Below, in pieces: positions 13,994 to 34,105 of a DNA stretch of 64,000 nt (positions are counted from its first letter, which is position 1; each line of letters opens with the position of its first letter). The position numbers and the translations under genes were made by a program. The stretch comes from a virus. The notes under the pieces are model-generated. The model was given only the letters and a program-made list of their open reading frames with translations. It did not search any database and was not told where the DNA came from. The DNA lies in IMG/VR virus record IMGVR_UViG_3300028844_002497, positions 1 to 64,000 of that record; one strand, written 5' to 3'.

Positions 13994-14054
13994 ACGTTGA
14001 TTGTTTACTCCCGTTACATGTATATTTAACAAAATTTGACACCTATGATATTTT

Positions 14055-20173: not shown

Positions 20174-21451
20174 TCACCGGAGTTCCCATAAAGATTTCAA
20201 GTCTTGTGGTCTAGAAAAAATGTTATTATAGTTTTCCCAAAGATCATCACCAATATATCCTCTTTTAATATCATTATATCTATGGGGTATAACAACATAT
20301 TGAAAGAAATCTAAAACTTGAAACAAATCATTTCCTGTATTGTTCATATAATCTGGAGTTAAATATTTTTCAAACTTTTCTAATTTGTATTCACTTGGAT
20401 CAGATGAATTAAGTCCTATAAAATGCATAATAGATTCTACATGTACACCACTTCGCATGTCTGCCATATACTTAAAATAATTACGTTGTGTCTTTTCTTT
20501 GACACTATTCCATAATTGTTTATACTCTTCAGGTGATTTATATATTGTTGACAAACGTCCTAAGTTATCTAAGATACCATCAACACGTTCAACATAACTA
20601 GGCTTATCGTCAAATGAATAGTCAAACAATTCGTCATAAAGTTCTATTTGTCTTTCTTCTTTTAACCATTTATGATAACCCTGTGCTCCAAGAACTAGAA
20701 ATGGTTTGTGTGCAAATAAAGGTTTATTAGTTTTTTCTGATAGATAAAATTCATCTTTATCTATTCTACTTTCTGTTACAATATCTATAACACCTCGGAA
20801 GTAACTTGGGCCTAATCGATTAGGAACCCATTCATGTTTAGTGTTTAATACAAATTGATCTTCTAATGGATCTTCTAACGGCATAAGATAAGGAACATTA
20901 TTGATTGGCGCCCAGTCCTCAACATTCCAATCACTCATATTTGGCATGTTAACAGTAAACTGACGATATGTAATTATACCTAAATTTTGTAATCCTCTAC
21001 CAAATAATTGATTAATCATATAGTTTCTATAATCAGAAGGTCGATTATTATAGCATGTAAATAAAAGGTCAGGTGAATAATTATCGTCTATTGGTAAACA
21101 TTGATCAGAATGTAGATTATATGGCATAAGAGATGTGTGGTAGTTAGTTACATCATATGTTTGACAAAGATGTGTCTCTACATATTTAGGATAATCATAC
21201 TCGTATTGATTACATGATGCAAACACATGAATTTTTCTGCCTGTTTTGCGACACCATGGCTCAAGGTGTCTTATGCCGGATCCATATATAGAACTAATAT
21301 CTGCTTCGCCACCACTAACTATAAGAAATCCGGCTGGATCGTATTGATCAATTATAAGATTAAAATAATTTCTAAGTTCTTCCTGATGGTCTTCATAAGA
21401 TTGATCATAGTTATGAGTAATTCTATGGTCTATTAAACACCATTTAGACAT
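20174..21451 (-). CDS. GT10/exostosin-like glycosyltransferase (paralogue family member)
   Basis: This protein has 425 residues. Its centre carries the diagnostic block VIDIVTESRIDKDEF, LSEKTNKPLFAHKPFLVLGA, followed by YDELFDYSFDD, matching the proteins at 9275 and 22417. The E-x-TEK-x-KP-x(4-6)-KPF-x-x-x-G pattern resembles the nucleotide-sugar-binding half of fucosyltransferase/exostosin GT-B enzymes. The N-terminal half (AGFLIVSGGEADIS, LLFTCYNNRPSDYRNYM) would be the acceptor domain. There is no DxD motif, as expected for GT-B. It overlaps the epimerase gene by 8 nt, which would fit use of that enzyme's sugar nucleotide product. The exact family is uncertain. Confidence 0.65.
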   Translation of the reverse strand: MSKWCLIDHRITHNYDQSYEDHQEELRNYFNLIIDQYDPAGFLIVSGGEADISSIYGSGIRHLEPWCRKTGRKIHVFASCNQYEYDYPKYVETHLCQTYDVTNYHTSLMPYNLHSDQCLPIDDNYSPDLLFTCYNNRPSDYRNYMINQLFGRGLQNLGIITYRQFTVNMPNMSDWNVEDWAPINNVPYLMPLEDPLEDQFVLNTKHEWVPNRLGPSYFRGVIDIVTESRIDKDEFYLSEKTNKPLFAHKPFLVLGAQGYHKWLKEERQIELYDELFDYSFDDKPSYVERVDGILDNLGRLSTIYKSPEEYKQLWNSVKEKTQRNYFKYMADMRSGVHVESIMHFIGLNSSDPSEYKLEKFEKYLTPDYMNNTGNDLFQVLDFFQYVVIPHRYNDIKRGYIGDDLWENYNNIFSRPQDLKSLWELR

Positions 21452-22424
21452 CTTTTACACCGGATTCAATCTGTCCGCAAATCCAGTTGTAAGTTTTTTC
21501 GATGCCTGTCTCTAAATCTTCATCTGGTGCCCAATCAATCTTTTCTTTTATTAATTTATTATCAGATGTACGACCCATAACGCCTCGAGGCCCGTCGATA
21601 TTTTTAATTGTAACTCTTTTGTTTGATATCTCTGCTATAAGGTGTACTAATTCATTGATAGATATTTTACGTGTACTGCCCAAGTTCACAGGCTCTGTAA
21701 GGTCGCTTTCCATGATACGTTGTATACCTTCTACACATTCATCAATAAACAAGAATGAACGAGTTTGATTACCCGGTCCCCATACTTCAATGACTCCGTC
21801 ATGTTCAGCCATAGCAACTTTTCGACATAAGGCAGCCGGTGCTTTTTCTTTCCCATTGTTCCAAGAACCTTGAGGGCCAAAGATGTTGTGAAATCTTGCA
21901 ATCTTCACATTCATATTATAACATCTTCCGTATGCTAAGTAAAGCCTTTCTGAGAATAATTTCTCCCAACCATAATCTGAATCTGGGTTTGCCGGATATG
22001 CTGTATGTTCTGCTAGATCAGGATTGTCAGGATCTAATTGATTGTCTTGTGGATACATACATGCACTAGAACTATAAAATATTTTTTTAACATCATATCT
22101 ACGAGCAGACTCTAATACATTTAAATTAATTGTAGCAGAGTTATGCATAATATCTGCATCATTCTCGCCTACAAATATATAACCTGCGCCTCCCATATCT
22201 GCGGCTAATTGATAAACTTCATCAAATTTATGTTGTGAAAAGATAAAGTCAACCATTTCTGCTTGACGCAAATCTTGTTTGTAAAAATCATTTGCTCTTG
22301 TATCTTCATATAAAGGATGTTTAATATCTACTCCTATTACAGTATGACCTTGGGCTTTTAAATTGTTAACTAAGTGTGTGCCGATAAATCCACCTGCACC
22401 ACAAACTAATATTGTTTTATTCAA
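21444..22424 (-). CDS. GDP-mannose 3,5-epimerase-like NAD-dependent epimerase/dehydratase
   Basis: This 326-residue short-chain dehydrogenase fold protein has VCGAGGFIGTHL (NAD-binding GxxGxxG, 8-18), QLAADMGGAGYIFVGEN (72-88), FYSSSACMYP (116-125), the catalytic pair Tyr151/Lys155 in YGWEKL, FHNIFGPQGSW, EKAPAALCRK, and QTRSFLFIDECVEG. The DMGGxGYI, EKAPAA and TRSF-IDECVEG signatures are those of GDP-mannose 3,5-epimerases, which make GDP-L-galactose/L-gulose; GDP-fucose synthase is a less likely alternative. The start is a TTG with an AAAGGAG eight nt upstream, since no ATG is available. It overlaps both glycosyltransferase genes on either side, implying that it supplies their donor. Confidence 0.87.
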   Translation of the reverse strand: MNKTILVCGAGGFIGTHLVNNLKAQGHTVIGVDIKHPLYEDTRANDFYKQDLRQAEMVDFIFSQHKFDEVYQLAADMGGAGYIFVGENDADIMHNSATINLNVLESARRYDVKKIFYSSSACMYPQDNQLDPDNPDLAEHTAYPANPDSDYGWEKLFSERLYLAYGRCYNMNVKIARFHNIFGPQGSWNNGKEKAPAALCRKVAMAEHDGVIEVWGPGNQTRSFLFIDECVEGIQRIMESDLTEPVNLGSTRKISINELVHLIAEISNKRVTIKNIDGPRGVMGRTSDNKLIKEKIDWAPDEDLETGIEKTYNWICGQIESGVKDV

Positions 22425-23886
22425 AACTACATCTCCTTTCTAAATCACAGTATTCAGAATAATCTGTGTTAAAGTTATTTGTTATATGTTCATATATGTT
22501 ATTTACTACTGTAACAGAACCAGGTTCTTTAAACATGTTATAATTGTGTTCTACTATCGGTTTTACTCTACGTTTAAAATAAAGTATGTCATCACGTGAC
22601 CAAGATGCAATTTCTTTTAAAATGCTTTCTATTGCAAGTAAACGATTTGAAGGAGATTCTATAGTATCATAATCTTCACTCCAAAATTCACTAAATGTTT
22701 GAAAACCTAAATCTCTTAAACCTTGCATTGAGCCCGGTACTCCTATTATAATAAAAGGATGTTTATTGTATAAAGGTTTAAATGATTTTTCAGTCAATGT
22801 ACATTCATCATTGTTATAATTTGTTTCTGTTATTAATGACAGCAATGTTTGTTGATAATATGATTGTGTGTAACCGAAATCTTCACACATCTTATTAATG
22901 TTTGTTTCTCCATCAATGATTAACGGACAACGATTTGCAAATCTGTCTGCTATTTCTTGTGAAATATGTAGACGTTGAGATTCATATAAACGCAGTTCAC
23001 CGTCATTATCACGTTGATTTTCTATTTCTTCTTTAACTGTATGGAGTGCTTGTTCACTGTCAACTTTTGCAAAACTCATTAATGATTTGTCTATTAAGTT
23101 ATTTTTTTCTAGCATCAGTGCCAGGCTTGTTCTGTGTTTTCTAAAACGTCTGTTCCATGCTAAAAATAATTTATCAGGAACAATTTCACAATCATATACA
23201 TTTTCAGTTATAGGGAAATTACCTTCGTCAGTGCTATAAGTCTGACTATGATAAAAGTTATGAAATATTTCACGGGAAGATGCGTAAGGAATTATGTGCA
23301 TTCTATGTTTTCTATCGTTTGGTATTTGATGTCGTTCACAAAACTTTTCATACACAACAGATGCATTCACTGTTCCTGTAAGATAGATAATTTTGTACAT
23401 AGGTATTTTATGATTTTTATGAAAATATGAAAACATTGATTGGAGTTCTGCATCTCCCATAAATGCTTCTACACTGTGATCGATTAATATATAACCGTTT
23501 CTTACTGCACACATATGTATTAACCATTTAGGCATATGAGAAAATTCTAATACCCCTGAATCAGTAATAAAATATGATCCAAAGTTTAATCTCCATGTCA
23601 TAGAAAAAGGATAAATGAACGGAGTCATAGCATCTGCTTCGATGCCCTGCACCGGTGTTAATTCAAATTTGTCTTTTGCTTTTGAAAATTGTTTATTCCA
23701 AACATCATCAGACCAAAAATGACGAGATTCCATAATTGGATTGATGCCATGTGCTTCTCCGGCCAATGTTAAAATGTTTGGTAATTCAGTATTCCATATA
23801 GGACCTCGAGGGCCATACCAACTATATACGACTTTTACTTTATCGTCTTGGCTATGCGATATGACTGATCGGAATTTTTCGTTCAC
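22417..23886 (-). CDS. GT10/exostosin-like glycosyltransferase (second paralogue)
   Basis: The C-terminal half of this 489-residue protein carries SLITETNYNNDECTLTEKSF, KPLYNKHPFIIIGVPGS, LGFQTFSEFWSEDYD and a family-typical helix ending RLLAIESIL, aligning with the proteins at 9275 and 20174. FLAWNRRFRKHRTSLALML corresponds to the LNWRFTKHRQILANFL segment of the 9275 protein, so the homology covers more than the C-terminal motif. The start is GTG, with AGAGG six nt upstream. The gene overlaps the next radical SAM gene by 35 nt and the epimerase by 8 nt. Transfer of the epimerase-derived sugar is the simplest guess; acceptor unknown. Confidence 0.65.
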   Translation of the reverse strand: MNEKFRSVISHSQDDKVKVVYSWYGPRGPIWNTELPNILTLAGEAHGINPIMESRHFWSDDVWNKQFSKAKDKFELTPVQGIEADAMTPFIYPFSMTWRLNFGSYFITDSGVLEFSHMPKWLIHMCAVRNGYILIDHSVEAFMGDAELQSMFSYFHKNHKIPMYKIIYLTGTVNASVVYEKFCERHQIPNDRKHRMHIIPYASSREIFHNFYHSQTYSTDEGNFPITENVYDCEIVPDKLFLAWNRRFRKHRTSLALMLEKNNLIDKSLMSFAKVDSEQALHTVKEEIENQRDNDGELRLYESQRLHISQEIADRFANRCPLIIDGETNINKMCEDFGYTQSYYQQTLLSLITETNYNNDECTLTEKSFKPLYNKHPFIIIGVPGSMQGLRDLGFQTFSEFWSEDYDTIESPSNRLLAIESILKEIASWSRDDILYFKRRVKPIVEHNYNMFKEPGSVTVVNNIYEHITNNFNTDYSEYCDLERRCSFE

Positions 23887-24865
23887 TTTTTACCTCTTCT
23901 CCTGTCCAATGTTTTGGAATAATAATATCTGTACCGCACATGCACATTTCTTTGTAGCATGTTATTTGTTTAGGTCCCACATTCTTAATATCTTCCAAGA
24001 TGTGACCTACATCTCCGCCCATACCACAACTTGCTAAACTCATTGTGCCTACAGGATTAATAAAAATGCAATCACCTACGTTGCATTTCCAGCCACTGAA
24101 AAAGTTTTGACTCTTTACAATGATATCGTTTGCATTACATACTTGTTCTGTACCATCATCATAACGATTATATGATACAGTCATCTCTGTTCTTTTGTTT
24201 GGTTTAGGAACACTCTGGTGTGATTCTATATTGTGTTCTTCGATAAACTTCACATGCTTTGGATCTGAATACTTCCAAGGGCCTGTTACATGTGATAGTT
24301 CGTCATAAAGTGGTGTCCACTCTACAAAATAATTAGGCATGACAGTCTTTAAATGTTCTGCAAACTCTACGCATTCCCAAAATTTTTCTTCATGTAACAA
24401 TATCTTCGTGCTTAAGTAGTTTACGTTTTCACATAACCATATAGAGTTTTCTTCGTAACGTTCTTTGTTACATTGCTCAACATGAAAACTAGCAACAATG
24501 TCATCGAATAAATATGCATGTTTCTGCCACCATTTCAAAGGTCTTGACAAATTAGTATTAACTGCTAAAGTAGCATACGGCATGTTCTCATAAATCCATT
24601 CACATATAGGAATGAAGTTGCGCCATGCTGTTGGTTCTCCACCAGAGAAAAAGAATTTAAAGTTTTTGTAACCTGCTTTCTTATAACGTTTTACTATTTC
24701 ATCTAAGTTCTTAATGTAAACGTCTAAGTTTCCGTTGTTAGGGTTATCGCCCGCCCAGTTACCTGGGTTACAATAACTACAACTAAAATTACAAAAGTTA
24801 TTGACCTGCCATGTTATTGCTAAGTATGGTTCAGGTGCAAAAACTTCTTTTAACTCTCTGCCCAT
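23852..24865 (-). CDS. Radical SAM protein with C-terminal auxiliary cysteines
   Basis: This protein has 337 residues. The cluster motif CNFSCSYC is at residues 25-32, SGGEP at 74-78, and a cysteine-rich C-terminus (KCNVGDC, ASCGMGG, CYKEMCMCG) resembles a SPASM-type auxiliary iron-sulfur site. It is shorter than, and ordered differently from, the four twitch-first paralogues upstream. SPASM enzymes commonly modify peptides or small molecules, but also act on nucleosides and sugars. It overlaps its neighbours by 16 and 35 nt, tying the radical SAM block to the glycosyltransferase/epimerase block. No obvious precursor peptide gene adjoins it. Confidence 0.85.
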   Translation of the reverse strand: MGRELKEVFAPEPYLAITWQVNNFCNFSCSYCNPGNWAGDNPNNGNLDVYIKNLDEIVKRYKKAGYKNFKFFFSGGEPTAWRNFIPICEWIYENMPYATLAVNTNLSRPLKWWQKHAYLFDDIVASFHVEQCNKERYEENSIWLCENVNYLSTKILLHEEKFWECVEFAEHLKTVMPNYFVEWTPLYDELSHVTGPWKYSDPKHVKFIEEHNIESHQSVPKPNKRTEMTVSYNRYDDGTEQVCNANDIIVKSQNFFSGWKCNVGDCIFINPVGTMSLASCGMGGDVGHILEDIKNVGPKQITCYKEMCMCGTDIIIPKHWTGEEVKSERKIPISHIA

Positions 24866-26130
24866 TCGTATACTTCCTTCATTTCAGGTACTATATCTTC
24901 AAACTTTTCGTCTCTATATTGATCAAGTTCATCGTTGAACTTTTTAAATTCTAATATTCCACCTTTGTTTTCATCACCAACTGTTAAGTTATAGATGATC
25001 ATCTTAAAGCCATTGTATATGTCTACATTGTCTTTGTGTTTCTCTTGGTATACACGATATAGTTCTGCGAGTCTGCGTTTGACACTCTGTGGTAATATCA
25101 TTACGTTAGCATACCACGGGTTAGTCGCAAGATTGAATCTCGGTGATGAGTATTCAACATCGATAAACTCGTTATCAACCATGTAATCCCAAAAGTCAGG
25201 AAAATCAAAGATATTCCAAATGGATATCGTGGGAGTTATTTGAAACTGAGCATGTGGAACTTGCTCTTTTACGTCTCTGATATTCCTGACAACTTTTTCC
25301 CAGTCTGTGCCGCTTCTGATACACTCTGCGACTTCGCCATGTGCATCTAAACTAGCCCAGATTTTTAACTGGGGAAACTTTTTCCAATACGCAATCAAAT
25401 CAACATTCTTCTTATAGTTAAGAGTTGAAAAGTTTGTTGTATAAGTTAATTCTACTTGTTCTGTTAGATCATTTTCGATCCAGTAATCTAAACATTCATA
25501 ATGCTCCGGAGTAATGACAATTTCTCCACCAGCAAAATAAACTTCTGTAACGTCATCTAAGTAAGGCTTAAGTTTTGACATCAATGTCATTTCATCATTG
25601 TTACTGATAACAATTTTACCTTTGTTCTTGGGGAAGTATTCATCAAACACTTCTTGACCACGTTCATTTAAAAATTCTTGTGACCATAGTGATGAACATG
25701 AAGGGCCACATGATCTGCATTTCATGTTACATATATTACTAAAACGAATATCCATATATTTCATTTGAAACTCTTTCAATGATCCATCGTCATTAGTAAC
25801 ATCTGCTATGTAATCGACATAATCAAGTCCTTTACGTTTGTTATGTGACTGTCTCATTGTCCATTCGCCCATTAACTCTAAGTCATAGCAACGTTTACAT
25901 TCAGCAACAGGTTCATCACGCATCATTTTAGAACGTAAATCATTATACTTGTCAGAGTTCATCATCTGTATAATTGATTCATCGTCTCTAAGTTCTGCTG
26001 TGGGCAACTCACTGTCTGCAACACAACAAGGCATCACACGTTTGTCTGGCCATGCATGAAAATGTACCCAGGGTAAAACACAAAAATGTTTACCGTTTTC
26101 GACTAGGTTCTTTACTACAATCTTTTCCAT
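24850..26130 (-). CDS. Twitch-domain radical SAM protein (copy 4)
   Basis: This 426-residue protein has an N-terminal cysteine module (FCVLPWVH at 16-23, CC at 35-36, CKRC at 78-81) that precedes the radical SAM motif CNMKCRSC (134-141). This is the reverse of the usual SPASM order and matches the twitch-first radical SAM group. The motif VYFAGGEIVITPEHY, corresponding to the GGE SAM-binding element, follows. It is the last of four related genes and lies immediately after the outer-membrane protein gene. The function of the group is not known to me; two or more iron-sulfur clusters are expected. The start ATG directly follows the upstream stop with one base between. Confidence 0.85.
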   Translation of the reverse strand: MEKIVVKNLVENGKHFCVLPWVHFHAWPDKRVMPCCVADSELPTAELRDDESIIQMMNSDKYNDLRSKMMRDEPVAECKRCYDLELMGEWTMRQSHNKRKGLDYVDYIADVTNDDGSLKEFQMKYMDIRFSNICNMKCRSCGPSCSSLWSQEFLNERGQEVFDEYFPKNKGKIVISNNDEMTLMSKLKPYLDDVTEVYFAGGEIVITPEHYECLDYWIENDLTEQVELTYTTNFSTLNYKKNVDLIAYWKKFPQLKIWASLDAHGEVAECIRSGTDWEKVVRNIRDVKEQVPHAQFQITPTISIWNIFDFPDFWDYMVDNEFIDVEYSSPRFNLATNPWYANVMILPQSVKRRLAELYRVYQEKHKDNVDIYNGFKMIIYNLTVGDENKGGILEFKKFNDELDQYRDEKFEDIVPEMKEVYEWAES

Positions 26131-26131
26131 C

Positions 26132-26806
26132 TTAAAACTTCACTCCCAAAGTTATGTTAAAAATACTTCTTTCTATTGGGTCTTTTGTATAAACATTCTT
26201 AAGACCTACTGTTACTTTATCTGTTAGACTATAATCAAATGATGTTTCATTTCTTATATAATCATCTTCACCTGACTCCCATAACATCTTGTTTACAAAT
26301 GTAACTTTTTTGTTTAAGTTATATGCATACCAAACTGATGAACGTATAATAGGTTCACTAATCTCATTTGAATTAAGATATGCAATTGAATTTTCTATTG
26401 ATGCTTTATGAGTATCTGTTCTAAAAATTTTATATCCGTGTCCTATACCTAATACGATTCTATCATTGTTATCTCTAAATTCATCATAATCATAACTGGT
26501 AGATCCTATTACATAATGTTTGTCAGTTATAGTTCTAATTGCTTTACCACTAGTTCTAAACTTATTAATTGTTTGTTCACTGTCTTCTGCTTTGTAGGCA
26601 TAGTCTGCATCAAATACTCCTTGCCATATATCTGATTCCCATTTATGATCAAACGACCCTGTAAATACAATCGATTCGTCAATGTTAACAAACGTTCCAC
26701 CGACTTTTGCTTTTGTTTCTGCTGTTACAGCAGGTGCTAACATAATGATAGCCGCTACTGCAAATAATATAGTGATATCTCCTATAAATTTTAATTTCTT
26801 TTTCAT
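26132..26806 (-). CDS. DUF481-like outer-membrane beta-barrel protein with signal peptide
   Basis: The frame extends to 26851, but the ATG at 26806 overlaps the previous gene's stop (ATGA) and gives a normal signal peptide: MKKKLKFIGD, a hydrophobic stretch to about residue 25, and a probable cut after AVTA. The mature part (about 190 residues) alternates polar and aromatic residues in short strands (FTGSFDHKWESDIW, TSYDYDEF, DRIVLGIGHGYKIF, IIRSSVWYAYNL) and ends in LGVKF, a terminal phenylalanine typical of outer-membrane barrels assembled by BamA. The overall pattern, including RIVLGIGHGYKIF, resembles the YdiY/DUF481 salt-induced family. A phage-encoded outer-membrane protein inside a radical SAM operon is unusual; receptor masking or envelope remodelling is possible. 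Confidence 0.75.
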   Translation of the reverse strand: MKKKLKFIGDITILFAVAAIIMLAPAVTAETKAKVGGTFVNIDESIVFTGSFDHKWESDIWQGVFDADYAYKAEDSEQTINKFRTSGKAIRTITDKHYVIGSTSYDYDEFRDNNDRIVLGIGHGYKIFRTDTHKASIENSIAYLNSNEISEPIIRSSVWYAYNLNKKVTFVNKMLWESGEDDYIRNETSFDYSLTDKVTVGLKNVYTKDPIERSIFNITLGVKF

Positions 26807-28050
26807 TCTTCTAAATCTCGTAAACCGTTGAGTTCTGGAAACACACTCCAAAAATCTTCATCTCTTATTTTATCTATGGACGCAGTGTGTTGCATCATAA
26901 TCTTTTTGTTATCTTGCCATGTATTATCTTCATTAGCAAAATTAACTGCATCTCTAATTAAACGTGATAAACTTGTCTTGTCCCCTTCAAATTTGTCAGC
27001 AAACTTTAAAGCATTCTCTGCCGCCGGTCCTTTCATTGCAGTAGGTAAACTCTTAGCACTATAGTAACTAGGATGCACAGCAAGATATAAACTATGATAC
27101 CAATCCTCGGCTCTTACAATATTCTTATCTTTAAGATATTGATAAAACTCGCCGATCATTGGATAATTAAACATAGAGAATACTGTATTCATTTGAAATG
27201 TTACGTAATCTAAATCTCTGAATGTAAGTAAGTTATTTTCTACTACACCCCAGTCTGTTCCTTTACGTAACCATTCTGCTCTTTCACCGTAATGATCAAC
27301 TGAACAACTTAATTCAATATTATCAAAGTGTTTCCAAAGTTCTAATATATCATGCTTCTTATATTTAATGTTACTTGCGTTAGTATTGTACCTTAGTACA
27401 GGTTTTTTACCGCGTCTAATAAATTCTTCTAACATGACATAATGTTCGTCTGTAATTAGTGGCTCTCCGCCTGCAAAATAACATAAGTCAATGTCGTCAA
27501 TATGTTCTAATGTTTCTTCTAGTACTGTTCCTGTTTGGTCGTCTGCATGTATTAAGATAGGATGTTTAGGATCGTGGTTGGCTCGCATCTCTGCTCCCCA
27601 CTGCGAACTAAACTCACTGCCACATGTACGACATTTGAAATTACATATATTAGAGAACCTAATATCAAAATAATGCATTCTAAAGTCATCTACTGTTCCG
27701 TCTGCTTTTGTTTGTGGTACTAACTCATCGAATCGTTTACCAAAGTGTTCTTTAGAATAATTTCTAAAACTATGCGGGCCTGCTTCTTCATGTTTATAAC
27801 AGAAATCACATACACTATTTTTTTTATCATTTAACATATCTAAACGTAATTGTTTCATTTTATCATTATTAAATGCTTCTTTTAATGATGTTTCTTTAGT
27901 GTTGCCAAATGGTTGTGTATAGTCATTAGAACAACAAGGATAAATATCTCCTTTGGGTGTTACGTTTAAATGCAACCAAGGAAACATACAGAATGTTTTA
28001 CTTTCTTCTAACAAGTATGTCTTATCTACTGCTGGTATTCTTTCACTCAT
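26803..28050 (-). CDS. Twitch-domain radical SAM protein (copy 3)
   Basis: In this 415-residue protein the N-terminal module has FCMFPWLHLN (20-29), CC at 39-40 and CDFC at 81-84; the radical SAM motif CNFKCRTCG follows at 136-144, then CYFAGGEPLITDEHY. It is very similar in pattern to the protein at 28047 (shared RFSNICNFKCRTCGS, YFAGGEPLITDEHY, YNTN-SN-KYKK), indicating recent duplication. It is joined to the outer-membrane protein gene by an ATGA overlap and overlaps the upstream copy by 4 nt. The function is unknown; it probably acts on the same class of substrate as its neighbours. Confidence 0.87.
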   Translation of the reverse strand: MSERIPAVDKTYLLEESKTFCMFPWLHLNVTPKGDIYPCCSNDYTQPFGNTKETSLKEAFNNDKMKQLRLDMLNDKKNSVCDFCYKHEEAGPHSFRNYSKEHFGKRFDELVPQTKADGTVDDFRMHYFDIRFSNICNFKCRTCGSEFSSQWGAEMRANHDPKHPILIHADDQTGTVLEETLEHIDDIDLCYFAGGEPLITDEHYVMLEEFIRRGKKPVLRYNTNASNIKYKKHDILELWKHFDNIELSCSVDHYGERAEWLRKGTDWGVVENNLLTFRDLDYVTFQMNTVFSMFNYPMIGEFYQYLKDKNIVRAEDWYHSLYLAVHPSYYSAKSLPTAMKGPAAENALKFADKFEGDKTSLSRLIRDAVNFANEDNTWQDNKKIMMQHTASIDKIRDEDFWSVFPELNGLRDLEE

Positions 28051-29369
28051 GGTCGCAATGCCTTTGGTACTTTATATAATGCTCCTAACTCTGGAAAAGT
28101 TTTTAGAAAGTCTTCTCCTCTTAATGCATCTATGCGTTTTATTTCTTCTTTAAATTCTACTTCATTATCTTCCCATGATTCTTTAGACATTAACCATGGT
28201 ATAACTTGTTGTATTTCATTTATTTGTTCTTGTCTAAAGTTTAAATCTTTCATATAAGCCATAGTCAAATGTAATTGATCAAGTGCTTGTTTTTTGTATC
28301 CGCCCGGCAATACATGTGAAGATAAGTGTTCTGGTGATCCCATGCTGTAGAGAGTCCATACGGAACTCTCAGGGGTATAATAATGATTGTCTATCATATA
28401 CTTGTAAAAATGCGAAATAGTTAATGCGTTGAATATACTATATACAGTATTAACCTGAAAATTAACATTCTTTGCTTTCTTTAATTTCTTTAAATTTGTT
28501 TCAATTGTTTTCCATTTAGTTCCGTGTCTGATGTATTCAGCCTTTTCTCCCATATGATCTATTGATGCATAAATTTGAACTGGCTGTTCAAAGTGGTCCC
28601 ACAGTTTAAAGATATCTCGTTTCTTATATTTAAAATTAGATATGTTTGTATTATACCTTAATTGAATATCTGTTTTCTTTTTCTTAATCATTTCATCGAT
28701 CAACATATAATGTTCATCTGTAATTAGTGGCTCTCCACCTGCAAAGTATGCAACTTCAAAATTAGGAACTTGCTTTAATACTTCTAATATAAATTCTTCT
28801 CTGTTGCCTTTTTCTAACTCTATAGCATACATAGGCAAGCCTGTTTGCTCACGTGATTCTAAGTCTTCTTGTTCCCATTTAGAACTAAATGCACTGCCGC
28901 ATGTACGACATTTAAAATTACAAATGTTAGAAAAACGAATGTCAAAGTATCTCATACGAAAGTTGACTATTCTTCCTGTGTTCATATCAGTTGTATTGAT
29001 TACTTCATCAAAGTGATGTTGCCATGCTTCATTACTTTGTGTTCTAAAACTTGGTATGCCCTGATCATCATGTTTGTGACAGTTAGCACACTCAGGATTC
29101 TTGTTTCCTTTTAACATATCTAAACGCAACTTTTTCATCTTTGGAGAATTGACTAAATCTGCAAGACTGCTACGATTAGAGTTACCAACACCTTGATTGT
29201 CTGCACATGAATTTGCAATACAACAAGGAGCTCCTTGTCCTGTAGGTGTAGTGTGCATATGCACCCATGGAATCATACAGAAAGTTTCTGATCTATTAAG
29301 AAGCAAATCTTTTAAAAAGATTGCCTGCTTCTTATCTACAGCGGGTTTGTTAGGCTTACTTGCTGGCAT
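28047..29369 (-). CDS. Twitch-domain radical SAM protein (copy 2)
   Basis: This 440-residue protein has the N-terminal motif FCMIPWVHMH (30-39), CC at 49-50, an extra CxxxC-like Cys at 55, CANC at 94-97, then CNFKCRTCG at 150-158 and AYFAGGEPLITDEHY. Among the four paralogues it is closest to the next gene downstream. A 20-residue leader rich in Lys and Pro precedes the module. It overlaps the previous copy by 34 nt and the next by 4 nt. Conserved SAM-cluster and auxiliary cysteines are all present, so it is expected to be active. Confidence 0.87.
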   Translation of the reverse strand: MPASKPNKPAVDKKQAIFLKDLLLNRSETFCMIPWVHMHTTPTGQGAPCCIANSCADNQGVGNSNRSSLADLVNSPKMKKLRLDMLKGNKNPECANCHKHDDQGIPSFRTQSNEAWQHHFDEVINTTDMNTGRIVNFRMRYFDIRFSNICNFKCRTCGSAFSSKWEQEDLESREQTGLPMYAIELEKGNREEFILEVLKQVPNFEVAYFAGGEPLITDEHYMLIDEMIKKKKTDIQLRYNTNISNFKYKKRDIFKLWDHFEQPVQIYASIDHMGEKAEYIRHGTKWKTIETNLKKLKKAKNVNFQVNTVYSIFNALTISHFYKYMIDNHYYTPESSVWTLYSMGSPEHLSSHVLPGGYKKQALDQLHLTMAYMKDLNFRQEQINEIQQVIPWLMSKESWEDNEVEFKEEIKRIDALRGEDFLKTFPELGALYKVPKALRP

Positions 29370-30736
29370 AATTTATAAAAATCTAATAATTCAGGATATA
29401 CACTTAGTATATCTGTTTCTCTACGATCATCCATTTCGTTAAAGAAGTTGTAAAAATCTCTTCTACCTTCGATTAATTTTTCTTCACTATAATGTGTGTT
29501 TTCCATATAGTCAACAACACGTTTAAATTTCTCATATTCAATTGTAGTAAATCTATCACTACGTTCATCATCTACGTTGTCTTCCATAAACTTTAATGAC
29601 TCATGCATGTACGGCATAAATTCTTCTTTTGGTAAGATATTCATGTCATACATAATTGGGTCTCTTAAGTATGGAGTATCAAAACGTACTCTATGTTTGT
29701 CTTCTGTTTTCCAATCGTACCATCCATAGATAGCACGCCACTCTAAAAACTTTTCTAATAAACTCTTAAAGTCTGTTACTGCTAATAGATTAAATGTACA
29801 CATAAAAGTAACAGGAGAGTCTGTCTCTGTTAGATATGTATGTAAGTTCTTTTGAAACAGTTCTAAGTCTAATCCAGTTCTGATATACTCTGCTCGTTCT
29901 CCCCAGCAATCTAAACTAGTAAACATTTTAAAACTTTCTAACTTGTTTTCATCGCACAGTTTCTTTACAGAACTACTTAGTCGTTTTACTAAAGCATTCT
30001 TTGTACCCAAGTTACTATTCACATTAAGTTCTAACCAAGGCATCGGATCTTCATCAATCTTTTTAAATAGTTTCCATGTCGATGTGTGCATAGTAGGTTC
30101 GCCACCTGTTACACGTAAGATGTTTAAGTCTTTATTCATCTCAGGCCACCATTCCCAGAACGCATCAACATATGGATTTTCTTCTTCACGTTCAAAGAGT
30201 TTCATCCAATCAATATCGTTTCTATGATTCTTTACAGTCTCAATAGGACCAAAGTTTTTAATCTCAGCATGATAACTTGATGAATATTTAGGGTGACAAT
30301 AACCACATTTGAAGTTACACTCATTACCAAAGTTAATCTCTAAATATTCTGGATTGATGTTTTGATCCCAAGGACCATTGAGTGCTTGATCGAATCGTTC
30401 TTCTGTAAAGATAGAACCATTACGAATATGTCTGTCAGAGATATAGTCATCGCCCATGTCTTCAACATTCCAGCAGTACTGACAACCTTCTGGTCGTTCG
30501 CCTGCTAACATTTGCTTACGTTCCATTTTCTTTTCCCATGTGTTATGTAATGCACTTGGGTTCTCGGCTAATTCATGTAATGGAATCTTGTGTGGTTGAG
30601 GATGATAACAACTATGAGTCTCACCTGTTTGTAAGTACATAGTAACATGTTGCCATTTGGCAAGACAAAATGACGGAGTTGCTTCTTCTTCAACTCGTAT
30701 CTGTATTGTTTTTATTCTATCAGTTTCTTTGGACAT
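29336..30736 (-). CDS. Twitch-domain radical SAM protein (copy 1, divergent)
   Basis: In this 466-residue protein the N-terminal module is degenerate relative to the other three: FCLAKWQH (23-30), a single Cys at 43 where the others have CC, and CQYC at 85-88. The cluster motif CNFKCGYC is at 140-147, and LRVTGGEPTMH carries the GGE element. It is the first of the array and overlaps the glycosyltransferase gene by one base (TAATG). The missing cysteine suggests a different auxiliary cluster or altered substrate. A long insertion (about residues 165-195, rich in Glu and Trp) is specific to this copy. Confidence 0.87.
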   Translation of the reverse strand: MSKETDRIKTIQIRVEEEATPSFCLAKWQHVTMYLQTGETHSCYHPQPHKIPLHELAENPSALHNTWEKKMERKQMLAGERPEGCQYCWNVEDMGDDYISDRHIRNGSIFTEERFDQALNGPWDQNINPEYLEINFGNECNFKCGYCHPKYSSSYHAEIKNFGPIETVKNHRNDIDWMKLFEREEENPYVDAFWEWWPEMNKDLNILRVTGGEPTMHTSTWKLFKKIDEDPMPWLELNVNSNLGTKNALVKRLSSSVKKLCDENKLESFKMFTSLDCWGERAEYIRTGLDLELFQKNLHTYLTETDSPVTFMCTFNLLAVTDFKSLLEKFLEWRAIYGWYDWKTEDKHRVRFDTPYLRDPIMYDMNILPKEEFMPYMHESLKFMEDNVDDERSDRFTTIEYEKFKRVVDYMENTHYSEEKLIEGRRDFYNFFNEMDDRRETDILSVYPELLDFYKLCQQVSLTNPL

Positions 30737-31680
30737 TACCAGCCTTCTATTTCTCTGATAATCTCCATCTCTGTTACAAGGGGACCTAGGTTTCTTTTGT
30801 CAGCATTGTAATGTCTTTTAAAGAATGCTGATTGATCTTTGTCTAACATGTTCATTGGCAACCCTAGTTTTGCTTTTAGTTCTTCCCCTATTTCTTTTGC
30901 GGATTCTATTGGATCACCGTTCATGTACTGTTCCCACATAGTAGGATAGTTATCAAACCATTGAATGTCTGTATGTTGAAAGTCTGTTAACATTGTCATA
31001 TATGTTCCAAGTCTTGCTCCGTAGATTGCCCAGTCACCATTCTCTGCATCTAAGCCTACGTTCTGCCATATAGTTAAGTTGTTCAGATTCTTATCTGCAA
31101 CTCTACCTTTGAACTCATCTACAGTTACTAATGCTCCGCGGTCTAATACCATCTTTACACCTTCTCTGAAACCTGCTCTCCATGCTTGAAAAGCAGACTT
31201 GTTAGGGTAAGTAGTAGAATAGCAATCATACATTGCCCAGTATAATGAATCTGCTGAATTCATCATAAAGTCAACTTGAGTTGCTTCAGAACCATCAGTG
31301 TGTTCATGTGTAGTCATGTTCTCTACATAAGTTTTCGTCCATGAAGACATACCTCCATTACCATAACGTAAGCCATTAACGTTATTGATAGACTTCCATC
31401 TAAACTGTGCTTGTTTATACTTTGGATCTTTGTCTGTAAAATCTAATTGAATATTAAAGAAATCTTCTTCGGGTAATGTGTCACCGTCGATTAAAACAAA
31501 TCGTTCAGTCTCACTCATTTCACCTGCGGCTTTGTGTGCTTGATCAGAGCCTAATACCCCATCAACTCTTTGTGCCCATGGAACCATGTTCTTAATTTGT
31601 ACCCAAAATTCTTCTTTTTGTGGTTCATCGTAACTTAGATAGATAACATCCAAATCTGCGATATCAATAATATTACTCAT
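30736..31680 (-). CDS. GT-A type glycosyltransferase
   Basis: In this 314-residue protein, a strand DVIYLSYDEP at the start, RVDGVLGSDQAHKAAGE (38-54) and FVLIDGDTLPEEDFF (61-75), with a DxD metal-binding motif at Asp65/Asp67, are typical of GT-A nucleotide-sugar transferases. The rest (VNGLRYGNGGMSSW, FQAWRAGFREGVKM) aligns with the C-terminal domain of the giant repeat protein at 384, which has lost the DxD. The ATG at 31680 is chosen over the TTG at 31683; it overlaps the micro-gene upstream by 8 nt. Donor and acceptor are unknown. Confidence 0.75.
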   Translation of the reverse strand: MSNIIDIADLDVIYLSYDEPQKEEFWVQIKNMVPWAQRVDGVLGSDQAHKAAGEMSETERFVLIDGDTLPEEDFFNIQLDFTDKDPKYKQAQFRWKSINNVNGLRYGNGGMSSWTKTYVENMTTHEHTDGSEATQVDFMMNSADSLYWAMYDCYSTTYPNKSAFQAWRAGFREGVKMVLDRGALVTVDEFKGRVADKNLNNLTIWQNVGLDAENGDWAIYGARLGTYMTMLTDFQHTDIQWFDNYPTMWEQYMNGDPIESAKEIGEELKAKLGLPMNMLDKDQSAFFKRHYNADKRNLGPLVTEMEIIREIEGW

Positions 31681-31840
31681 CAATGTCCTTTTTTGCTTTT
31701 CTACTATAACTATCTTCTGGATCTATTTCTGCATCAGCATTCATAAATCTCATACGTTGAATGGCATCCCAATTGATACCGTCACTTGGTTTCCATACTT
31801 CTCTAATTGGTACGTATTCTTCTTTATCCGATTTCTTCAC
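31673..31840 (-). CDS. 55-residue acidic/charged micro-protein with GTG start
   Basis: An open frame fills the gap between the 115-residue gene and the glycosyltransferase gene. It begins with GTG at 31840 inside the end of the preceding gene (17-nt overlap) and ends with a TAA that overlaps the next ATG by 8 nt. The product, starting VKKSDKEEYVPIREVW and containing WDAIQRMRFMN and EDSYSRKAKKD, looks protein-like and explains the otherwise empty 143 nt. It has no recognised family. Confidence 0.6.
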   Translation of the reverse strand: MKKSDKEEYVPIREVWKPSDGINWDAIQRMRFMNADAEIDPEDSYSRKAKKDIDE

Positions 31841-32171
31841 TAAACAACTCCCAGTATTTGCCTTTAGATTTATTTGTTACTAATATACTTATGTCATCTA
31901 CAGAAACCAAAACACCTGATGTACTAGGCTTATATTTTTGTACACCCGCTTTGCGTCTATTACGAGTAATGCGACCGTCTATCACTTTAACGTCAGGTCT
32001 GGCTTCTGCAAACACACCGGCATCGATGACTATGTAATTACCTTCTAGTTTTTCACATGTATAAAAGTCAACTGTTCCGTCTTTTTTATAGTACAATCTA
32101 AACTCAGGAGCCTCAATAACTGGTGCTTCCCATACAGTGATGTATTCTTCGTTGTTTTCTTTATCACTCAT
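31824..32171 (-). CDS. Hypothetical 115-residue protein
   Basis: A mostly beta-strand pattern (EFRLYYKKDGTVDFYTC, YIVIDAGVFAEARPDVKVIDG) is followed by a basic RNRRKAG stretch and a strand-rich end (GVLVSVDDISILVTN). I do not recognise it as an enzyme. It overlaps the glycosyltransferase at 32171 by 1 nt and the micro-gene by 17 nt. Its place between glycosyltransferase genes and virion genes would suit a small virion or assembly protein, but there is no direct evidence. Confidence 0.6.
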   Translation of the reverse strand: MSDKENNEEYITVWEAPVIEAPEFRLYYKKDGTVDFYTCEKLEGNYIVIDAGVFAEARPDVKVIDGRITRNRRKAGVQKYKPSTSGVLVSVDDISILVTNKSKGKYWELFSEEIG

Positions 32172-32965
32172 TAAACCGACTCCTCTATTTTATCAGAAAA
32201 TGATTTAATATGATAGTGAAACGGATATGTTTGTGGAATTGTGTTCACTCTTAATGTGTTTGGATAAATTTCATACAATAAAGTATCAGTCCATTTTTCT
32301 GACGGTGTGCCATTAATAAATTGTTTCATGTGTATCATAGAAAATTCTTTAAAAGTTGGCAACGTAGACTTTTCTACTCCTATAATATGACATGCATAAG
32401 CATAAATCCAATCAGTTGTTGCTGGTTCAGTTGGATTACATTGCAGTGTGTCTCTAAACTCACTCCAATTCTCAAACATATGTCTTACGATGTCAAAGAA
32501 TTCTTTTGCTGTTTCTGACTTTTTAAAATAAGTTATAGCATTATATACGTCTGGTAGTTCGTTATCGTCTATAAACCTACGATAGGTGCGTACATGCGAT
32601 ATATTTTGCTTAAAGTCACGTATATGTGTAGATACAACTAAGTCTCTTTGCTTAAGTATATCCCACCAATAATCTATTGATGTCGGAACGTACATATCTG
32701 CTTCTAATTTGATCGTGTGTTTATAAGGACTTGCTTCATACACTTGCCAATCGTTAATTAGTTTCCAATTACTGTCTGGTTCTAAATCTCCGTACGGTAA
32801 TGGAATAACTTTATGAAATGCTTTGCACTTTGTTTTGTCATCAGAGATTAAAGATACTTTTGCATCTGGCATAACTCTGATAATAGACTCTGCTAGTTGT
32901 TCGGCACATTTGACATAGTTGACATCGGTTGTGTTTTGTGCTAATATAACAAATCCTTTATCCAT
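32171..32965 (-). CDS. GT8-like GT-A glycosyltransferase
   Basis: This 264-residue protein has an N-terminal FVILAQNTTDVNYVKCAEQLAESI, VSLISDD, then NDWQVYEASPYKHTIKLEADMYVP, where EAD replaces the DxD motif. AITYFKKSETAKEFFDIV is typical of the second half of GT8/NDP-sugar transferases. It is clearly homologous to the next protein (289 residues), which keeps a DVD motif at the same place. The first metal ligand is Glu here, which some GT-A enzymes tolerate. It overlaps its neighbours by 1 and 8 nt. Confidence 0.7.
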   Translation of the reverse strand: MDKGFVILAQNTTDVNYVKCAEQLAESIIRVMPDAKVSLISDDKTKCKAFHKVIPLPYGDLEPDSNWKLINDWQVYEASPYKHTIKLEADMYVPTSIDYWWDILKQRDLVVSTHIRDFKQNISHVRTYRRFIDDNELPDVYNAITYFKKSETAKEFFDIVRHMFENWSEFRDTLQCNPTEPATTDWIYAYACHIIGVEKSTLPTFKEFSMIHMKQFINGTPSEKWTDTLLYEIYPNTLRVNTIPQTYPFHYHIKSFSDKIEESV

Positions 32966-33827
32966 TGTTCATTATCCCCACAAATAAATCTTTATTCATC
33001 ACGTGAAAATCCATGTCTTTGATTAGCATGTATTCTTTTCTAACTTTACTCTTCTTCCAATGATCAAACATGATAGTAAATTCTGTATTAAAGTCCCATA
33101 TCTTGCCGTCTACAGGTACTTGTGCATCACTCTGATTTGCATATACTGAAGTATTTTTTCCTACATGAACTAGATTCCAAGGTATATAATCACTTGGCAC
33201 ATCTGTATGTCCATTAACAATTTTAAGTGCAATAGTTAATCCATAGTCATTACGATATACTCCACCAATAAAACTGTGTATGCCTGCATAGTGTTCATAG
33301 TTATCTTGCACCATTTGCAATGTCTCAAAGATTTGTTTTGCACGGTTAGATTTCTTAAACATAATCACTGTTGCCCATAACGTTTCATATGTGTAACCCA
33401 TTTTTTCTTGTGCCGCTTCTGGGTGCATAAGCATATGTGTATTACTGTGACAGCAGAATGTATCAGATAAGTCAAATGTTTTTAATAGTGTATCAGAATT
33501 GACAAGATAGTCAACATCAATTACCAGCGTTTCCTCATAAGGACTAAGTTCATATGCTTGATATCGACCTTTATTGATCCATGATGTTTGTTCTTTGATA
33601 TTACTTAAGTCTGGTTCGACTTCGATGATAGAATCGAATGCATCTCTATCGTTTAAGATAGATTTATGTGATTCTATATCTGTAACTAAAGTTGTAGGTA
33701 GTTCTAAGAATGTTGCTATTCTTCTTGCAGTATATACTGCCATGTCGGCATAGTTGTATTTGCTAGAATTAAAAGCAAATAAAACGACCCCTCTAGTTTT
33801 TACCGTTTTCTTTCTAGTTCTTTCCAT
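32958..33827 (-). CDS. GT8-like GT-A glycosyltransferase (DVD motif)
   Basis: In this 289-residue protein, GVVLFAFNSSKYNYADMAVYTARRI, then TTLVTD, INKGRYQAYELSPYEETLVIDVDYLVNS, with the DxD as Asp-Val-Asp, and TVIMFKKSNRAKQIFETL give a full GT-A glycosyltransferase layout. It is the paralogue of the protein at 32171. The frame overlaps the upstream 107-residue gene by 28 nt. It may glycosylate tail proteins, since it directly follows the structural module, or join the island's glycan pathway; neither is shown. Confidence 0.72.
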   Translation of the reverse strand: MERTRKKTVKTRGVVLFAFNSSKYNYADMAVYTARRIATFLELPTTLVTDIESHKSILNDRDAFDSIIEVEPDLSNIKEQTSWINKGRYQAYELSPYEETLVIDVDYLVNSDTLLKTFDLSDTFCCHSNTHMLMHPEAAQEKMGYTYETLWATVIMFKKSNRAKQIFETLQMVQDNYEHYAGIHSFIGGVYRNDYGLTIALKIVNGHTDVPSDYIPWNLVHVGKNTSVYANQSDAQVPVDGKIWDFNTEFTIMFDHWKKSKVRKEYMLIKDMDFHVMNKDLFVGIMNNG

Positions 33828-34105
33828 TCACTGTTCCACTCAGTCATTACGTTATTATATGTTTTAGTAAGAGATTCTAATAGTTTTGATCTATCTACTT
33901 TTACTGGATTATCAAACGTGTCTATAACGACAAGAGTTTCATCAGAAAATGAGTTAAGAAAGCCTATAGTTTGAGCATCGGCATTCCACAAACCGCCTTG
34001 TTCTGCAATGACAAGTTTGCTCTTATATTTTTCTTGTAGGTATGCTTTGGCTGAATTATGACTAAATCTAGCCTTTGCATCTTTGATTAGTTTTGTTGTA
34101 TCCAT
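33800..34105 (-). CDS. Hypothetical protein, about 101 residues, first gene of the glycosyltransferase run
   Basis: The ATG at 34105 is chosen over the one at 34123 because a GGGAG and a late-promoter-like TCTAAATA lie directly upstream at the usual distances. The product starts MDTTKLIKDAKARFSHNSA, has a beta-rich centre (KLVIAEQGGLW, ETLVVIDTFD) and ends in a charged helix EWNSEWKELERKR. The helix-sheet-helix layout with an Asp-containing strand suggests a small soluble phage protein. I recall similar short genes near tail fibre genes in marine T4-like phages, but cannot name a function. Confidence 0.65.
   Translation of the reverse strand: MDTTKLIKDAKARFSHNSAKAYLQEKYKSKLVIAEQGGLWNADAQTIGFLNSFSDETLVVIDTFDNPVKVDRSKLLESLTKTYNNVMTEWNSEWKELERKR

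Follow-up and report, generated by a model that had tools for sequence, protein, structure and literature searches.

What would a phage do with four consecutive radical SAM genes of unusual build? The question is raised by the window analyzed here, a stretch of 64,000 nucleotides from the 66,792-base virus record IMGVR_UViG_3300028844_002497, which has no megablast match over its first 25 kb. A preliminary description had noticed the four genes and proposed that they modify one substrate in succession, a sugar or lipid rather than a peptide. We have followed the array into related contigs, and our analysis tentatively points to a modification system linked to the tail fibers.

The radical SAM array

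The four genes lie, like every feature described below, on the minus strand (copy 1, 29336..30736, 466 aa; copy 2, 28047..29369, 440 aa; copy 3, 26803..28050, 415 aa; copy 4, 24850..26130, 426 aa). All are full-length members of NCBIfam NF033640 (N_Twi_rSAM), with 309.7, 375.2, 362.0, and 347.6 bits, respectively, at a cut-off of 170, so the recognition of tandem twitch-first paralogs in a phage holds. In copies 2–4, but not in copy 1, the N-terminus is recognized by Pfam SPASM; Radical_SAM follows the N-terminal module in all four, with copy 1 (26.5) and copy 4 (22.7) scoring below its gathering threshold of 29.5. In the alignment the cysteine module precedes CxxxCxxC in every copy, and FC, W-H, C, CxxC, and CxxxCxxC are invariant. 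To that extent the module is shared as first described, whereas copy 1 departs from it (the KW/SC subfamily), with K replacing the P of PW and HSC where copies 2–4 have PCC; it retains four conserved N-terminal cysteines against five in the others, in agreement with the auxiliary cysteine reported missing. The copy-1 subfamily, with the same cysteine missing, also occurs in Bdellovibrionota contigs, and the missing cysteine marks it as an old one. A degenerate copy 1 was considered and rejected, as this is the most constant copy and keeps four N-terminal cysteines.

Identity to copy 2 is 42% for copy 3, 31% for copy 4, and 21% for copy 1, so these are old paralogs, and in trees the copies fall into position-specific clades whose order is conserved in IMG/VR contigs. 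Recent tandem duplication was rejected on these two grounds, and a single recent expansion is not supported. Copies in the last position, when labeled by position, do not form one clade (5 changes), because additional or rearranged copies occur in part of the loci, and the copy 2 clade taken alone is unsupported in the larger FastTree tree (0.013). The array recurs in divergent contigs and is thus not a product of chance. Its genes are closely packed: copy 1 overlaps the upstream gene f0 by 1 nt and copy 2 by 34 nt, copies 2 and 3 overlap by 4 nt, and copy 3 overlaps an outer-membrane protein gene by 4 nt; a 1-nt gap separates the latter from copy 4, which overlaps the next gene, f2, by 16 nt.

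The outer-membrane gene (26132..26806, with its ATG at 26806; a longer ORF to 26851 overlaps copy 3) does lie between copies 3 and 4, as had been seen, and belongs to DUF481 (Pfam, E 2.6e-21). It is present in only 8 of 87 twitch-first-bearing loci, those of the window's own group and L012, and was rejected as the system component it had been taken for; at the copy 3/copy 4 junction, several other loci carry small ORFs of no relation to it or lack an insert altogether. In the window's lineage it travels as cargo, an insert outside the core.

Directly downstream of copy 4 lies a fifth radical SAM gene, f2 (23852..24865), missed in the preliminary description. It has the usual domain order, lacks the N-terminal module (35.2 bits against NF033640, below the cut-off), and encodes five C-terminal cysteines with SPASM-like spacing, invariant in an alignment of 32 sequences (C261, C280, C303, C308, and C310). 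All of the best 80 f2-anchored loci contain a twitch-first gene, and 55 of them contain f13 (17074..19002 in the window), a B12-binding radical SAM protein (Pfam B12-binding and Radical_SAM). Between f2 and f13 are two members of a conserved multi-copy family delineated by clustering across loci (f1, 22417..23886, a possible transferase, and a second member, 20174..21451) and f22 (21444..22424), an NAD-dependent nucleotide-sugar epimerase/dehydratase (Pfam Epimerase, E 1.1e-44; PHROG nucleotide-sugar epimerase). A structure search by sequence gave no significant match for f1.

In isolate-phage searches at E 1e-5, no match was obtained for copy 1, f2, the DUF481 protein, f0, f3a, or f7 (the last three are described below), and for copies 2 and 4 the sole matches were distant Vibrio phages (2 and 13 records, respectively). 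In bacteria, twitch-first genes occur without cassette partners in Bacteroidota and other groups; homologs in Elusimicrobia are fused to TPR repeats, and one in Paenibacillus lies within an acyl-carrier-protein/ketosynthase cluster (six neighborhoods were read by eye, with Pfam run on six L096 neighbors and one L106 neighbor).

A conserved cassette behind fiber-like genes

The array is the downstream part of a larger cassette, with the order f8, f6, f7, two f3 genes, f11 or f39, f0, and then copy 1. The first gene, f8 (35131..36348, 405 aa), encodes a tail-fiber-like virion protein that matches PHROG families of virion structural proteins and of unknown function; its counterpart in the relative L062 matches "tail fiber protein." A second fiber-like virion protein, f6 (34161..35114, 317 aa), is recognized by composition, position, and a homolog in Pseudomonas phage Cassandra; it has no PHROG match, and a structure search by sequence was also without result. 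Serine plus threonine make up 29% of f6 and 24% of f8, the highest and second-highest values of nine virion-region ORFs measured; this speaks for a fiber acceptor, but Ser/Thr richness is in any case common in tail fibers.

The third gene, f7 (33800..34105, 101 aa), may encode a tail-fiber chaperone. Its ORF extends to 34123, and aligned relatives start at the methionine used for the 101-aa form. AlphaFold2 predicts a confident folded domain (pLDDT 92.4), for which Foldseek lists phage proteins with DUF4376 as weak matches (E 0.005 and above); a fold search of the PDB returned only insignificant matches, prefoldins first. DUF4376 is a domain of fiber chaperones in Alteromonas phages V22 and A5, as described in the source text available. 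The f7 product resembles these in its position directly behind a fiber-like gene and, weakly, in fold, but is about half as long (101 aa against 195 and 239 aa) and has no Pfam match.

Relatives were collected with twitch-first, f0, f3, and f2 queries (the best 80 per alignment query), so the frequencies given here hold for the window's relatives rather than for all phages. Pooling the loci from all queries gave 125 f0 groups separated at less than 90% amino acid identity. The gene set does recur with conserved partners: f8, f6, f7, and two f3 genes lie upstream of f0 in all 106 groups with at least 5 kb of upstream sequence, and f11 or f39 in 98 of these. Downstream, a twitch-first gene follows in 111 of the 112 groups with at least 5 kb and is absent in one; the first copy is of copy-1 type in 104 and of another type in 7, and within the contig sequence available copy-1 type is the sole twitch-first type in 22 of the 112. 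Among the best 80 f0-anchored loci, 78 have a twitch-first gene, and the first copy behind f0 is copy 1 in 74, of unclear type in 3, and missing in 3; the corresponding figures for 79 f3-anchored loci with f0 are 64, 8, and 6, plus one fragment. Copy 1 is near-obligatory, and copies 2–4 and f2 are optional, at variance with an array of four equal members; shared order and orthology likewise contradict a collection of unrelated single acquisitions. The cassette, comprising tail-fiber-like genes, probable sugar-transfer enzymes, and one to five related radical enzymes, is old and widespread.

Its carriers are large uncultured aquatic relatives of phage T4. The gp23 major capsid protein was found in 14 of 15 relative records, hand-picked mostly for length; for the window, part of a 66.8-kb record, the evidence is its PHROG matches to baseplate wedge and hub proteins. 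A T4 gp15 model has no match in the window's record but was silent everywhere it was searched, so that its silence here is uninformative. Ten of the 15 relatives encode IscU (8), an A-type Fe-S carrier (9), or both, as would be expected if radical enzymes worked hard during infection; neither is found in the other 5 or in the window's own fragment.

The fiber block can also occur alone. The f6 family has a single isolate-phage record, that of phage Cassandra, where it lies beside an f8 homolog in an 18.6-kb locus with the order f15-f8-f6. This locus has no match to f7, f3, f11, f0, or the twitch-first genes; in the whole record there is no f0 (in a search repeated with two positive controls) and no f3 (in a search without one), and the best twitch-first match reaches just 16.6 bits. 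The linkage to fibers may therefore be a mere habit of the host-recognition region.

Probable sugar transfer and candidate functions

The genes between f7 and copy 1 strengthen the link to sugar chemistry that had been proposed. The two f3 genes (f3a, 32958..33827; f3b, 32171..32965) encode probable GT-A glycosyltransferases; without a Pfam match, their profile finds glycogenin-2 as its best PDB hit, weakly (E 0.011) and over the first ~100 positions. They are followed by f11 (31824..32171; 115 aa), which is conserved but has no Pfam match and is replaced by f39 in another clade, and by a 55-aa ORF (31673..31840) clustering in 9 loci including the window. Adjoining copy 1 is f0 (30736..31683, 315 aa), predicted to have a GT-A fold with an invariant DxD motif (DGD; D66 and D68). 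Its AlphaFold2 model (pLDDT 87.1) matches GT-A enzymes in both Foldseek and VIA, with the PBCV-1 capsid glycosyltransferase as first Foldseek match (E 1.2e-4). TM-scores are low (0.22–0.43 among the matches listed), the best VIA Z is 9.2 over 139 residues, where even models that lack a clear match usually reach 7 to 8, and by sequence f0 has no PDB match. Catalysis of sugar transfer by f0 and f3 is thus putative.

In a simple hydropathy test, the DUF481 gene is the only one with a transmembrane-like segment among window ORFs starting from 384 to 37156, and such segments occur in 20 of 2,227 unique proteins from 17 cassette and neighbor families. By this test the locus shows no sign of a flippase, an exporter, or a membrane transferase of the Gtr type, which fits a cytosolic acceptor. 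O-antigen conversion modules of the Gtr/Oac type have a membrane-bound flippase or transferase, and the cassette differs from them in this respect. LPS core and nucleotide-linked sugars are equally possible products of cytosolic transferases, a point that runs against a fiber target.

With somewhat less than even confidence, we read the locus as a tail-fiber-linked modification cassette of T4-superfamily aquatic phages, combining glycosylation and radical editing of an acceptor made by the phage. From this arrangement we infer an acceptor, reactions, and a biological role as follows. The phage would produce the fiber proteins f8 and f6 and the DUF4376-like chaperone f7; the two f3 proteins and f0 would assemble a short glycan on a cytosolic acceptor of the phage's own making, for which the Ser/Thr-rich fiber f6 or f8 is the likeliest candidate. 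Copy 1 could then carry out a radical C-H reaction (for example, epimerization, dehydrogenation, or cross-linking) on the sugar or the sugar-bearing side chain, using a 5′-deoxyadenosyl radical and one auxiliary iron-sulfur cluster in its N-terminal module. Copies 2–4, f2, f13, and the sugar-nucleotide enzymes may add lineage-specific tailoring, so that the antigenicity or receptor binding of the fibers would vary from phage to phage. A bolder version, a virion-protein maturation system in which radical SAM enzymes act on the glycans or glycosylated side chains of the tail fiber itself, with copy 1 as near-universal core enzyme, the variable paralogs giving each phage a chemical "serotype," and phage-encoded Fe-S assembly proteins supplying them, is possible but doubtful.

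The main alternative, which we consider conceivable though on the unlikely side, is remodeling of host-surface glycans, with radical SAM enzymes making unusual sugars of LPS or capsule for superinfection exclusion or progeny release. A place behind fiber genes would suit this, as would the sugar-type genes downstream (the epimerase and a carbamoyltransferase in the window; UDP-sugar dehydrogenase and DegT aminotransferase in relatives) and the outer-membrane gene added by the window's lineage; the pelagimyophage authors, in the text available, read the transferases of the host-recognition cluster, with GT8 best represented, as O-chain modifiers (PMC7029224). The restriction of the outer-membrane gene to one lineage weakens the case, as does the hydropathy test, in which no membrane-bound transferase, flippase, acyltransferase, or polymerase appears, and the invariant upstream neighbors are fiber genes and a chaperone-like gene. 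Hitch-hiking, in which selfish or metabolic genes with no relation to one another accumulate at a hypervariable locus, would accommodate the variation of copies 2–4, f2, f1, f13, and the inserts, and the bare fiber block of Cassandra; the overlapping genes and constant content and order of the core over 106 groups make it most improbable there, and it could hold for the variable part.

Enzymes with SPASM or twitch domains are often peptide maturases, and they could modify peptide or protein side chains without any sugar, their substrate being either a virion protein or some hidden peptide. The TPR fusions of Elusimicrobia, a repeat that often binds proteins, and weak peptide-maturase matches of copy 3, far under the NCBIfam cut-offs, are in line with this, but none of the five radical SAM proteins reaches such a cut-off. 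The preliminary description, which saw no precursor nearby, had held that a small precursor gene in every homologous cluster would speak against its proposal; f7 is such a constant small gene, yet it was rejected as a precursor because of its confident fold, and f11 because it is conserved along its length. The fold matches listed for f7 include no RRE. Overlaps leave little room elsewhere (twitch-first/twitch-first junctions have a median of −4 nt, and 12 of 113 exceed 60 nt), and clustering of ORFs of at least 50 aa gave no conserved precursor-like ORF inside the array; the absence of an evident precursor there stands, and side-chain modification of this kind is improbable. Chemistry on a small molecule or nucleic acid (a cofactor-like compound, a modified nucleotide, or DNA hypermodification) is very unlikely. 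The Paenibacillus context indicates that the family can serve small-molecule pathways, and T4-like phages are known for glycosylated DNA; against this, the cassette keeps its position behind fiber genes, and no nucleotide-modification gene stood out among the annotated proteins of the window, which comes from a fragmentary record.

If fiber modification is correct, oxygen-sensitive radical chemistry is the means by which certain of the largest aquatic phages rebuild the fibers that bind their receptors, and we found no report of such chemistry on virion proteins. The dozen or more radical SAM genes of T4-like environmental phages, and the Fe-S assembly genes that these phages encode themselves, would then be explained. 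A function would be assigned to the twitch-first family, which Bdellovibrionota share, and new enzymes for editing sugars would come within reach. Even if host-surface remodeling proves right instead, f3, f3, f11, f0, and copy 1 form a conserved, testable core in an otherwise anonymous hypervariable region.

Relation to known systems

Contrary to the first suggestion, the system is not wholly undescribed. All four array genes belong to the cataloged NF033640, a sequence family whose listing gives no function and does not mention arrays, partner genes, or the KW/SC subfamily of copy 1. Published work reports radical SAM cassettes in the pelagimyophage host-recognition cluster (PMC7029224), and IscU/A-type carrier genes in T4-like environmental genomes, one with 12 radical SAM genes (PMC5332604). 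The cassette resembles those phages in its T4-like setting, fiber neighborhood, transferases, several radical SAM genes, and Fe-S assembly genes; the two papers, in the text available, mention such genes in passing and describe neither the order of twitch-first paralogs nor the f3-f3-f11-f0-copy 1 core with its constant place behind fiber genes. That T4-like phages can carry many radical SAM genes is already published, whereas the conserved cassette itself was not found in the literature; nor did we find a paper on an N-terminal twitch or on Bdellovibrio with SPASM.

Virus-encoded transferases, with the top Foldseek match of f0, connect the cassette to glycosylation of phage virions and the PBCV-1 capsid; mycobacteriophage capsid and tail tube are glycosylated (as cited in PMC12619734). 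The accounts available of these systems mention no radical SAM enzyme, and the target of the present cassette is a proposed one. With the SPASM/twitch maturases of ribosomal peptides the array shares an auxiliary iron-sulfur domain joined to a radical SAM core; it differs from them in having no evident precursor, a reversed domain order, and transferases as neighbors.

Radical SAM genes of the window

The preliminary description had proposed four head-to-tail twitch-first radical SAM genes, and this holds: copies 1 to 4 (29336-30736, 28047-29369, 26803-28050 and 24850-26130, all on the minus strand) score 309.7, 375.2, 362.0 and 347.6 bits against NF033640 (N_Twi_rSAM), each above the NCBIfam cut-off of 170 bits. 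In all four an auxiliary iron-sulphur module lies N-terminal to the CxxxCxxC radical SAM core; PCC of copies 2 to 4 is HSC in copy 1. Between copies 3 and 4 is a DUF481 outer-membrane protein gene (26132-26806, minus), present in 8 of 87 loci bearing twitch-first genes: L012 and all seven members of the window's group whose sequence extends to that position. A fifth radical SAM gene, f2 (23852-24865), overlaps copy 4; its domains come in the usual order, and its C-terminal cysteines are SPASM-like. Two more genes encode B12-binding radical SAM proteins (11669-14032 and 17074-19002, both minus), bringing the window to at least seven radical SAM genes.

Occurrence and conservation of the cassette

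A profile search of IMG/VR with the four copies returned at least 600 stretches and at least 558 relatives, of which the best 80 were retained, giving 79 loci; copy 2 alone as query gave nine. The 87 loci analyzed comprise 86 that were fetched (one from a bacterial MAG) and the window. They collapse to 46 groups at 90% amino-acid identity. L051 has one twitch-first reading frame, and the other 86 loci have two or more.

When the remaining ORFs of these loci (50 aa or longer) were clustered, constant partners emerged: two tail-fibre-like virion genes (f8 and f6), a DUF4376-like gene (f7), two GT-A-like candidates (f3), one of two alternatives at a single position (f11 or f39), a GT-A-fold protein with a DGD motif (f0), the twitch-first copies and f2. 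Beyond f2 lie a conserved multi-copy protein (f1), an epimerase, a B12 radical SAM protein and others. Co-occurrence in sets of the best 80 loci, each set anchored on one partner, was as follows: f0 with f3 (80/80), f8, f7 and f6 (79/80 each) and a twitch-first gene (78/80); f3 with f0 (79/80) and a twitch-first gene (73/80); and f2 with a twitch-first gene (80/80). Pooled and de-replicated, the collected sets yielded 254 f0-bearing loci in 125 groups. Upstream of f0, f8, f6, f7 and two f3 genes are present in all 106 evaluable groups, and f11 or f39 in 98; downstream, a twitch-first gene follows in 111 of 112, the copy-1 type coming first in 104 and being the sole type in the available sequence in 22, with f2 in 55. 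Most neighbouring genes in the representatives overlap (median -4 nt for 113 junctions between twitch-first genes, 12 exceeding 60 nt; median -1 for 40 junctions of f0 with a twitch-first gene, four exceeding 60), and all 36 junctions of a twitch-first gene with f2 overlap. Neither the protein family nor the region is new, and such phages were already known to carry many radical SAM genes; no description of the conserved cassette, its copy-1 core or the orthologous order was found in full-text searches of openly licensed PMC papers.

In a set of 50,697 records of isolate phages (INPHARED), copy 2 matched two distant Vibrio phages and copy 4 matched 13 records; copy 1, f0, f3a, f7, f2 and the DUF481 protein matched none, and these searches turned up no cultured phage with the cassette. 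In Vibrio phage K566 three annotated radical SAM genes lie near one another (record 161548-165950). They are distantly related to copies 2 and 4, and K566 is the nearest cultured model found; searches for f0 and, run without a control, f3 gave no match there. Fifteen relative records, chosen mostly for length (107 to 367 kb, ten above 200 kb), all contain twitch-first genes above the cut-off (1 to 19 matches apiece, some below it), and 14 encode T4 gp23. A contig filed under a Rhodobacteraceae MAG (L091) holds the phage cassette, outer-membrane gene included, and is probably a misbinned virus or prophage. Another, filed as Candidatus Pelagibacter (L092), has fibre genes, f7, two f3 genes and f0; its five twitch-first genes fall with bacterial homologues, and it is probably a phage of another lineage.

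History of the copies

First copies fall in one clade of a 97-row tree (17 of 17, SH-aLRT 99), their placement requiring one change where shuffling gives a mean of 16.0. The window's copies 3, 2 and 4 lie in clades of 13, 15 and 15 rows (support 99, 97 and 92). A 227-row FastTree supports copy 3 (0.944), copy 4 (0.883) and copies 2 and 3 together (0.997); copy 2 alone is unsupported as a clade (0.013). Cysteine counts, made by simple patterns on unique full-length proteins, give SC[YH][HL]P in 213 of 221 copy-1-type proteins and CC at that place in none; CC is found in 72 of 72 copy-2, 88 of 88 copy-3 and 109 of 120 copy-4 type proteins. Relatives of the copy-1 type that have KW and SC in place of PW and CC come from Bdellovibrionota contigs and a Pelagibacter-binned contig with the phage cassette, and on some bacterial contigs (L099, L106) such a gene is paired with an f2 relative. 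A match above the cut-off is present in 30 of 114 Bdellovibrionota genomes.

Elusimicrobia contigs (L104, L098 and L103) carry three to six tandem twitch-first genes in long frames; TPR repeats are fused to the five Elusimicrobia homologues whose frames were annotated. At L096:7938-16079 a Paenibacillus twitch-first gene sits within an acyl-carrier-protein/ketosynthase/AMP-ligase cluster, which would represent a small-molecule use of the family.

Partner proteins and the proposed target of modification

The predicted structure of f0 (AlphaFold2, mean pLDDT 87.1) matches in Foldseek the PBCV-1 capsid glycosyltransferase first (E 1.2e-4), then mostly other GT-A/nucleotidyltransferase-type enzymes. 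With VIA the best Z is 9.2 over 139 residues, and 34 of 998 chains reach at least 8, the tool warning that values from 7 to 8 are often seen. The DGD aspartates are invariant in an alignment of 31; the f0 sequence has no match in the PDB. The f3 match to glycogenin is weak (E 0.011). The predicted f7 structure (pLDDT 92.4) is helix-hairpin-helix-hairpin-helix; its best viral fold match is an uncharacterised phage protein (E 1.4e-9), followed by DUF4376 proteins at E 0.005 or above. Passages of two papers on Alteromonas phages treat DUF4376 as a mark of tail-fibre chaperones (PMC7289586, PMC10579305).

Elsewhere in the window, a 1856-aa protein (384-5954, minus) has 19 FD[FYW]-type motif matches, mostly 65-72 residues apart, and no Pfam match; its C-terminal domain is a relative of f0 (120 bits). 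It is predicted to combine a very large repeat region with a GT-A-like domain, and long relatives with an f0-like stretch occur in G004 and G008 (open frames 1841 and 1138 aa long). A NodU/NolO-like carbamoyltransferase (5964-7499, minus; Pfam Carbam_trans N and C, PHROG Nol-like) is, by family, a putative sugar-tailoring type enzyme.

Among window ORFs starting between 384 and 37156, the DUF481 gene alone has a transmembrane-like segment, which suggests that the cassette enzymes work in the cytosol and with no export machinery. Every evaluable group has fibre and chaperone-like genes upstream, and the two most Ser/Thr-rich of nine virion-region ORFs are f6 and f8; this favours, tentatively, modification of the tail fibre, which cytosolic enzymes would glycosylate and the radical enzymes would edit once glycosylated. 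Phage Cassandra counts against that interpretation, having the virion block f15-f8-f6 without the cassette: f7, f3, f11, f0 and twitch-first genes are all absent from the block locus, and its whole record shows no f0 (in one search two relatives matched as controls), no f3 (searched without a control) and no twitch-first gene above the cut-off. The cassette might instead remodel host glycans, as the pelagimyophage authors (PMC7029224) read the transferases of their host-recognition cluster; we rank this a close second. IscU and/or an A-type carrier is encoded in 10 of the 15 relative records, and in these Fe-S assembly genes the relatives match the T4-like environmental genomes, one with 12 radical SAM genes, described in passages of PMC5332604.
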